A model generated the notes under the pieces. The model saw only the letters and a list, made by a program, of their open reading frames with translations. It was not told where the DNA came from and ran no database searches. Below, piece by piece: positions 27,934 to 31,674 of a stretch of DNA of 43,880 bases. This DNA is from Candidatus Galloscillospira excrementipullorum (GTDB lineage Bacteria > Bacillota > Clostridia > Oscillospirales > Feifaniaceae): assembly GCA_018714125.1 (NCBI GenBank), contig DVNV01000053.1, positions 1 to 43,880 of the forward strand. The letters run 5' to 3'. Position 1 is the first letter of the stretch. Every line of letters begins with the position of its first letter. A program made the translations under genes and the position numbers.

Positions 27934-28356
27934 ATGTATTTTGACCGTCTGCCGATGCCGGCAGAGCAAATCAACCCGGCGGCCCTGGCCTATCTGGGGG
28001 ATGCCGTGTTTGAACTTATGACAAGGGAATACCTGCTGCACGAGATGCAAAGCCAGAGCGGCAAGCTGCACCGCAGGGCCAAGCGGCTGTGCAGTGCCGT
28101 GGGGCAGGCAAAAGCGGTGCGGGAGGTGCTGCCCATGCTTGACGAGCGGGAGATGCACCACTTCAAGAGAGGGAGGAATGCCTCTCTCTCGGTGACAAAA
28201 AAGACCAATCCCGGCGTCCACAGCGCCGCTTCGGGGCTGGAGACGCTGATGGGCGCTCTCTATCTGGAGGGGCGGCAGGACAGGCTGCGGCAGCTCTTTG
28301 ACGTGTGCCTGAGGGCCTGCCTGTCGGAGCAGGAGGAGGAAAGGGCCGGAGGATGA
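27934..28356 (+). CDS. mrnC: Mini-ribonuclease III
   Basis: NPAALAYLGDAVFELMTREYLL; RGRNASLSVTKKTNPGVHSAASGLETLMGALYLEG; located after cysS as in many Firmicutes. Confidence 0.94.
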   Translation: MYFDRLPMPAEQINPAALAYLGDAVFELMTREYLLHEMQSQSGKLHRRAKRLCSAVGQAKAVREVLPMLDEREMHHFKRGRNASLSVTKKTNPGVHSAASGLETLMGALYLEGRQDRLRQLFDVCLRACLSEQEEERAGG

Positions 28357-28577: not shown

Positions 28578-28706
28578 TTATCGGCAAGAGGAATTGCCGC
28601 GACCGCCCTTGGAATTTTGCTGGTTTTCGGTATTCTGCGGATGGGTCTGGGGTTCTTCCTGCTGATTTTGCTTGTTCTGCTTGTGCTTGTTCTTCGGATC
28701 GGACAT
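28578..28706 (-). CDS. putative 42-aa hydrophilic small protein, possible forespore/SASP-like product
   Basis: Minus strand ATG at 28706, product MSDPKNKHKQNKQNQQEEPQTHPQNTENQQNSKGGRGNSSCR, TAA at 28578; strong SD GGAGGTGAGCAAACATG; sigma-G-like promoter upstream. Not in the supplied ORF track (below its size limit). Confidence 0.65.
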   Translation of the reverse strand: MSDPKNKHKQNKQNQQEEPQTHPQNTENQQNSKGGRGNSSCR

Positions 28707-28755
28707 GTTTGCTCACCTCCGTCAACGCGTTGTGTACGGCAAAGCCGCCTGGCAA

Positions 28756-28785
28756 TAGCATGAGCAAAAGAGCCGGCGTTTATTC
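28756..28785 (-). promoter_or_regulatory. sigma-G-like (forespore) promoter for the 42-aa ORF
   Basis: Minus strand GAATA (28785-28781) - 18 nt - CATGCTA (28762-28756), fitting GHATR-N18-CATNHTA. Confidence 0.6.
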
Positions 28786-29026: not shown

Positions 29027-29061
29027 AATTGTTGTTTATTTTGCATATGGAGGCTTTTTGT

Positions 29062-29787
29062 ATGTCAGGACATTCCAAATGGAAAAATATCATGCACAAA
29101 AAGGAAAAAACCGATGCGCAGCGTGCCAAGGTTTTTACCAAAATTGGCAGGGAAATGTCGCTTTGCGTCAAGCAGGGGGGGGCTGACCCCAATGTCAATT
29201 CCCGACTCAAGGACCTCATCGCCAAGGCACGGGCCAACAACGTGCCCATGGACAATATCGAGCGCATCATCAAAAAAGCCTCCGGAGACGGCGCGGCCGA
29301 CAACTATGAGGACGTGACGTATGAGGGCTACGGGCCGAGCGGCGTTGCCGTGATTGTGGAGGCGCTGACCGACAACCGCAACAGGACGGCGGGCGATATG
29401 CGCCACTACTTTGACAAATACGGCGGGAATCTGGGTCAGAGCGGCTCGGTGAGCTGGATGTTTGCCAGCAAGGGCCAGCTTGTGCTTGAGAGCGAGGGGC
29501 GTGATCCCGACGAGGTGATGATGGACGCGCTGGATGCCGGCGCCTCCGACTTTGAGGACGAGGGCGAGGTGTTCACCATCACAACCGAGCCTGAGGCTTT
29601 TTCGCAGGTGCTGGAGCAGCTCTCGCAAAAGGGGTATCAGTTTGTGGAGGCCGAGGTGGCCAGGGTGCCCTCCACCTACGCCCGGATTGAAGACGAGGAG
29701 CAGGTTTCCAAGATGGAAAAGCTGCTGGAAATGCTCGAAGACAACGACGACGTGCAGAATGTCTACCACAACTGGGAACAGGATTGA
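29062..29787 (+). CDS. yebC: YebC/PmpR family DNA-binding regulatory protein
   Basis: [73 protein letters not shown]. Confidence 0.97.
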
Positions 29788-30786: not shown

Positions 30787-31674
30787 ATGCAGACGGACAT
30801 CTTCACCGACCTTGCGGTGGAGGCGGCGGCTCAGGCGCCGGCCGACGCTGCGGGGGTGCAGTCGCACACTGCGGTGCAGGGAGCCTTGCGCATCACCCGC
30901 CTTGAGATTACGTCGCAGGCCGGGGAGGCCGCTCTGGGCAGGCCGCAGGGGCGTTACTACACCGCAGAGATTCCGGACGCACTCGGACAGGGGGACGACG
31001 ATTACGACCAGGCCGCTCACACGCTGGCCGAACTGCTGGCAGAGCTGCTGCCGGAAGGGGACGGCTGCCTGCTGGTGGCAGGGCTTGGAAACGAGGGCGT
31101 GACACCCGATGCACTGGGCCCCGAGACCGCGTCTCGTGTGCTGGTCACGCGGCATCTGACGACGTCCGACGCCAAGCTGGCGGAGCTTTTCCGCGCCGTG
31201 GCCGTGGTGTGTCCCGGCGTGCTGGGGCAGACGGGCCTGGAGTCTGCCGAGCTGCTGCGGGGGGCTGCGGCCACCGTGCGCCCCGTGGCCATTTTGGCCA
31301 TTGACGCGCTGGCGGCGCGCAGCCTGGCACGTCTGGGCAACACTGTCCAACTCACGGACACCGGGCTGCTGCCGGGCGGGGGCATCGGCAACAGCCGTCA
31401 GGAGCTCTCCTTTCGCACCATGGGTGTGCCGGTGGTGGGAATTGGGGTTCCGACAGTCATCAGCGCGGGAACCCTGGTGCAGGACGTGCTGGCCGACCTG
31501 ACGCCAAACCCCAGCGTATCTCCGCCCATGGGACGGTATTCCAGCCTGTATGTGGCGCCCAAGGAGATTGACTCCACCAACCGCAGGCTGGCGCGCCTTT
31601 TGGCGGACGCCATCAATCTGGCACTGCAGCCCTCCCTGTCCCTGGAGGACCTGCGCTACTATCTGGAGGGCTGA
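30787..31674 (+). CDS. gpr: GPR endopeptidase (spore germination protease)
   Basis: MQTDIFTDLAVEAA; LLVAGLGNEGVTPDALGPETASRVLVTRHL; LPGGGIGNSRQELSFRTMGVPVVGIGVPTVISAGT; APKEIDSTNRRLARLLADAINLALQPSL. Confidence 0.96.
   Translation: MQTDIFTDLAVEAAAQAPADAAGVQSHTAVQGALRITRLEITSQAGEAALGRPQGRYYTAEIPDALGQGDDDYDQAAHTLAELLAELLPEGDGCLLVAGLGNEGVTPDALGPETASRVLVTRHLTTSDAKLAELFRAVAVVCPGVLGQTGLESAELLRGAAATVRPVAILAIDALAARSLARLGNTVQLTDTGLLPGGGIGNSRQELSFRTMGVPVVGIGVPTVISAGTLVQDVLADLTPNPSVSPPMGRYSSLYVAPKEIDSTNRRLARLLADAINLALQPSLSLEDLRYYLEG

Follow-up and report, generated by a model that had tools for sequence, protein, structure and literature searches.

Comparison of related genomes confirms that a 42-aa open reading frame (ORF) on the minus strand of the window, i.e. 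the whole 43,880-nt stretch of DNA analyzed here, is a real, uncatalogued gene. Its sigma-G-type promoter strongly suggests that it is expressed in the forespore. The gene lies convergent to mrnC and has the polar composition, the net charge between +3 and +8 and the forespore-type promoter by which we delimit a family of short genes in the host order.

The gene, its neighbours and its relatives

Eight genomes of the host family were compared, among them that of the window (G000), one of a sister species in the same genus (G003) and one of another genus (G004). The relatives named here are MAGs of uncultured bacteria, and several come from the gut of goats and sheep. The ATG of the ORF is at 28706, exactly where the sequence-only reading had put it, and the strong Shine-Dalgarno sequence (SD) and the upstream GAATA-N18-CATGCTA, an exact consensus match at 28756-28785, were likewise borne out. 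Between the ORF and mrnC lies a strong hairpin with A and T runs on its flanks, which is consistent with the bidirectional terminator proposed for both genes. The features are:

27934..28356, plus strand: mrnC (mini-ribonuclease III), convergent neighbour and constant landmark of the family; Pfam PF00636
28501..28542, both strands: bidirectional intrinsic terminator shared with mrnC; hairpin, -29.4 kcal/mol, z -9.3
28578..28706 (stop codon included), minus strand: coding sequence of the 42-aa Asn/Gln-rich polar peptide; kept in G003
28714..28720, minus strand: SD GGAGGTG; kept in G003
28727..28747, minus strand: conserved leader with a small hairpin, presumed mRNA 5' end; 21 nt identical to G003
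28756..28762, minus strand: -10 element CATGCTA, 18 nt downstream of the -35 element; identical in G003, CACTCTA in G002, AAAGCTA in G004
28781..28785, minus strand: -35 element GAATA; the same in G003, G002 and G004 at the matching position
29065..29787 (range as searched), plus strand: yebC, divergent neighbour; PF01709 and PF20772
30725-30754, plus strand: forespore-type site GTATG-N18-CATACTG of gpr itself, just upstream of it
30787-31674, plus strand: gpr (germination protease); TIGR01441
32592-33599, minus strand: spoIIP, close to gpr but oppositely oriented, the two being separated by a third gene

The ORF encodes MSDPKNKHKQNKQNQQEEPQTHPQNTENQQNSKGGRGNSSCR, followed by the stop codon. 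The first codon of yebC is at 29059 if the reading ATG-TCA-GGA-CAT is taken. Two known forespore genes, gpr and spoIIP, lie 2-5 kb from the 42-aa gene. In G003, gpr is preceded by GAATG-N18-CATACTG.

The G003 ortholog is 77% identical in the 39 residues that matched, and neither its promoter nor its synteny has changed. In the alignment the -35 block TTGAATAAA and the -10 block CATGCTAT are kept and the spacer and the upstream DNA have diverged; downstream of the promoter the leader and the SD are conserved and the ORF runs without indels. Between the window and G003 the ORF has a dN of 0.16 and a dS of 1.42 (Nei-Gojobori), i.e. dN/dS ~0.11, compared with a dN of 0.24, a dS of 0.32 and a ratio of 0.74 by the same method in the +1 frame. 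In the corresponding place G002 encodes a 49-aa peptide (MPDSRNNNRQNNQNQ...) and G004 a 96-aa peptide (MDEPRNKH..., then QQRAEQR repeats); in both, GAATA stands 18 nt upstream of the -10 element and the distance to the start codon is almost unchanged. A 57-aa version adjoins mrnC in G001, though yebC is not adjacent there, and G006 has a 43-aa version. Altogether, six of the eight genomes contain an mrnC-convergent version, and no such peptide was found between mrnC and yebC in G005 and G007. Among 59 relatives searched with the peptide, G003 was the sole confident hit, so synteny is needed to recognize the divergent members. The sequence-only reading had named missing conservation and a non-coding substitution pattern as arguments against the gene; what we found is an ORF with its promoter kept in G003 and divergent in G002 and G004, in the same place beside mrnC and yebC, and a coding pattern in frame.

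Conservation also bears on the explanation that a chance ORF stands beside a chance promoter-like match. In the 1.61-Mb genome there are two exact matches to the consensus and one to the reversed control pattern, so that the site alone is near chance level and owes its significance to conservation. Place, frame and promoter are conserved in G003, G002 and G004, and similar ORFs are enriched at this locus order-wide; pure chance is already contradicted by the conservation and we consider it extremely improbable. The only other exact consensus in the genome (L017, G000:C87:3218-3247), between divergent transporter-like genes, is probably a chance match.

A forespore regulatory or antisense RNA, for example one reading into the 3' end of mrnC, with the ORF being incidental, would agree with the orientation, which is convergent to mrnC everywhere, and with a small hairpin located at what is presumed to be the 5' end of the RNA. 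All four leaders compared in the host family (window, G003, G002, G004) contain this hairpin of 5-6 pairs ~7 nt downstream of the -10 element, with bases changed on both sides, and it may shield the mRNA 5' end; as wholes, the four leaders did not fold clearly better than shuffles. However, the low dN/dS, the retention of SD and start codon and the constraint on composition and charge across unrelated sequences argue against an incidental ORF, and in the window the strong terminator prevents read-through into mrnC. We regard an RNA function as very improbable.

Spread across the order

mrnC was located in 191 genomes of the host order, and the downstream region was taken for 120 of them. Both strands were scanned for SD-preceded ORFs of 25-130 aa with at least 18% Asn/Gln and few hydrophobic residues. 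On the strand convergent to mrnC 25 ORFs were found, of which one (L042) is apparently spurious, leaving 24 in 120 loci; the codirectional control strand of the same 120 loci gave a single ORF. These 24 ORFs encode peptides of 35-83 aa that are Asn/Gln-rich and almost without hydrophobic residues. By a hand tally they come from seven families of the order (f1 being the host family), with 8/12 sampled loci in f13, 6/10 in f23, 4/6 in f26, 2/4 in f9, 2/2 in f1, 1/3 in f2 and 1/8 in f3. The 75 sampled loci from other families of the order yielded none, and outside the order there was none on the convergent strand of 60 mrnC loci (Fisher p 3e-5).

The ORF is missing at mrnC in 96 of the 120 loci, from which it would follow that the family is either not universal in the order or located elsewhere in part of the genomes. 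A 43-aa Lys/Asn/Gln-rich peptide, MAKDQTPSNQKKQNDPISRKDQKGPENKKKDAPESKKTPDNKF, is encoded away from mrnC behind a strict forespore promoter (L169, G283:C12:14580-14628 and downstream), between birA-like and nrdR-like genes. Absence at the mrnC locus does not, therefore, prove that the protein is absent. Together with four other loci of the host family, the 24 ORFs make up the 28 examples on which the following statistics are based. Peptides from different families do not align, and their common descent is inferred from position, promoter and composition.

The forespore-type promoter

The consensus used was GHATR-N17/18-CATNHTA at most 72 nt upstream, a Bacillus-type textbook form which may not fully describe sigma-G of the host family. 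A promoter with at most one mismatch precedes 22 of the 28 examples (10 exact) and 2 of 189 control ORFs (0 exact; Fisher p ~1e-22), which were SD-preceded, at least 80 aa long and taken from the same regions; the 28 examples are phylogenetically non-independent, though their spacers differ widely between families. In shuffled sequence such a promoter appears in ~2%. Mismatches number 0 in the window and in G003, 1 in G002 and 2 in G004, where the site begins just outside the 72-nt limit and was scored against the hypothesis.

A strict form, GTATA-N18-CATACTA-N5-30-GAGGTG, gave 13 matches in 396 genomes and none for the reversed control. The genes behind it include five for SpoIIQ-like M23 proteins, one for a DacF-like carboxypeptidase and one for a CotF-like protein (names from reading the sequences), as well as two of the mrnC-side peptides. 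With a broad promoter pattern, the counts in 297 genomes were not clearly above the reversed control. The upstream regions of alpha/beta-type small acid-soluble spore protein (SASP) genes, intended as positive control, mostly had 2-4 mismatches, which is poorer than expected and partly due to mis-set start codons; gpr, SpoIIQ-like and DacF-like genes were used as controls in their place. Two of these SASP upstream regions (L028 in G003, L029 in G000) are almost identical to each other and have three mismatches to the sigma-G consensus, unexpected for SASP. Another strict match (L167, G015:C1:1511329-1511369) stands before a 114-aa protein with the look of a heavy-metal-associated domain and a polar Lys/Asn/His-rich tail.

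In clostridia the consensus sequences of sigma-F and sigma-G overlap and are nearly alike; a conserved G ahead of the -10 element marks sigma-F, and a terminal A on the downstream side of that element marks sigma-G (PMC3789822). The sigma-F regulon of C. difficile includes spoIIQ and gpr, and its sigma-G regulon includes dacF (PMC3789822). The -10 element in the window ends in the A described for sigma-G. A G is also found in all four promoters compared in the host family, three nt ahead of the -10 element, where the sigma-F position was placed, so that dual recognition by sigma-F and sigma-G is possible; the compartment would be the forespore either way. Of the original assignment to sigma-G, the forespore-type site with its full consensus fit stands, whereas recognition by sigma-G alone does not follow, as the two clostridial consensus sequences overlap. 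The genome of the window has a SigG-type gene; in all eight genomes of the host family its profile score stays under the curated cut-off. Genomes carrying the family have sigG-type genes and mostly also alpha/beta-type SASP genes.

The sequence-only reading had left open whether the product resembles minor SASPs or coat-associated peptides. Coat proteins are mainly products of the mother cell and the promoter is forespore-type, which makes the coat reading the weaker one.

Composition, charge and possible role

Across the 28 examples, lengths range from 35 to 96 aa and Asn plus Gln from 19 to 67%, with few hydrophobic residues; all 28 are predicted to be disordered by the charge-hydropathy rule. 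AlphaFold, given the four sequences of the host family, produced no fold (pLDDT 59, pTM 0.14), which is weak evidence given the shallow alignment. The window peptide, its orthologs and eight family members have no match in Pfam or NCBIfam, including the gamma-type and minor SASP profiles, although the correction for low-complexity bias may hide weak similarity. The profile of alpha/beta-type SASPs (PF00269) did not match the window peptide at E-values up to 10. There is thus good support for the claim of a small polar forespore protein outside the named SASP families, and the finding can be extended across the order.

SspE, the gamma-type SASP of Bacillus, is rich in Asn and Gln and poor in hydrophobic residues. 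It has been hypothesized to be an amino-acid reserve (PMC8452069) and is reported to be absent from every clostridial genome examined (PMC3533761). Clostridia reportedly have no gamma-type SASPs and hardly any minor SASPs (PMC3533761, PMC8452069), and the family described here is a concrete candidate for filling this role in gut spore-formers. The gene perhaps encodes a spore reserve protein of the kind believed to be missing in clostridia. Like SspE, its members are small and Asn/Gln-rich with few hydrophobic residues; SspE is expressed in the forespore, as the promoter suggests for the present family. Unlike SspE, they have no Pfam match, are mostly shorter and often contain Cys, and the window peptide has no cleavage site for the germination protease GPR. 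Homology to gamma-type SASPs is not supported. The minor SASPs SspK, SspL, SspN, SspO and SspP are similar in being very polar small proteins of 34-50 aa from sigma-G-type genes. SspL has 42 aa and SspP 48 aa, and the known minor SASPs are confined to bacilli (PMC3533761). In contrast to them, the present family is richer in Asn/Gln, has no profile match and conserves no sequence between families. Alpha/beta-type SASPs, of which this genome encodes a true one at G000:C94, are likewise small forespore proteins; they differ in being strongly conserved and DNA-binding and in possessing a GPR site.

Our best explanation, which we hold tentatively, is that the gene encodes a disordered, Asn/Gln-rich and positively charged forespore protein of a fast-evolving, order-specific family that acts in bulk within the spore core, much as gamma-type or minor SASPs do. 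The members show a constraint on composition and charge rather than on sequence; in the same tentative explanation, selection would also keep the lack of hydrophobic residues and forespore timing, but would maintain neither a fold nor a precise sequence. Its own sigma-G-type promoter would drive transcription of the gene in the forespore, possibly via both sigma-F and sigma-G, and the protein would accumulate in the spore core late in forespore development. Its later breakdown could supply amino acids and nitrogen for outgrowth; alternatively, it may be a hydrophilic filler that binds nucleic acids weakly. Of the possible roles, we consider filler of the spore core or amino-acid reserve the most likely. 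Against a reserve stands that the GPR-type motif E-[hydrophobic]-[A/G] is absent from the window peptide, with one weak match in all 28 peptides, and that Cys occurs in many members, frequently close to the C-terminus, a feature for which bulk storage offers no explanation.

The net charge is +3 to +8 in all 28 examples. Its variance is 1.5, compared with 14-15 expected under random charge signs, and the simulations never reached a variance as low as 1.5; the constraint also holds for 21 representatives from which close copies were removed, and charge was no selection criterion in the ORF scan. A charge so much tighter than chance would fit a minor-SASP-like protein associated with nucleic acids, whose charge lets it bind weakly, within the dehydrated core, to DNA, RNA or ribosomes, the Asn/Gln chain being only a soluble spacer. 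However, the peptides have no DNA-binding motif and match no SASP family, and the charge density is modest, with +3 in 42 residues in the window peptide. On balance we find such an association unlikely.

Cys is present in 22 of the 28 members and lies within the last four residues in 12 of them (8 of the 21 representatives), above expectation (P ~5e-5); the window peptide ends in NSSCR. Several members, e.g. G002 and G004, are without Cys. Together with the Asn/Gln low complexity and the repeats of several family versions, the recurrent C-terminal Cys could point to a gel-forming or assembly-helper protein whose Asn/Gln chain self-associates or helps to package spore proteins, the Cys being a crosslink, as in GerG. 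GerG (CD0311) of C. difficile is an Asn-rich, low-complexity, disordered and gel-forming spore protein with a variable number of repeats and no relatives outside its lineage (PMC5241399). The members of the present family are likewise Asn-rich, of low complexity and predicted to be disordered. In contrast, GerG is much larger, has Met- and Pro-rich repeats that the family lacks, and has a known germination phenotype, for which its Asn-rich repeats are dispensable (PMC5241399). With these differences and the members without Cys, a gel or assembly function seems quite unlikely.

Returning to the spore-core filler or reserve, it is possible, though doubtful, that the order has its own non-homologous replacement of gamma-type SASPs beside mrnC, which stores amino acids and is maybe Cys-crosslinked in the core. 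On that equally doubtful reading, the family would have stayed unannotated because its members are short and without alignable sequence. Our literature searches found no description of an mrnC-convergent Asn/Gln-rich family. A forespore family that is recognizable via position, promoter and composition and not via sequence implies that a class of spore proteins escapes homology-based annotation, and the family may be usable as a sporulation marker in uncultured gut bacteria.
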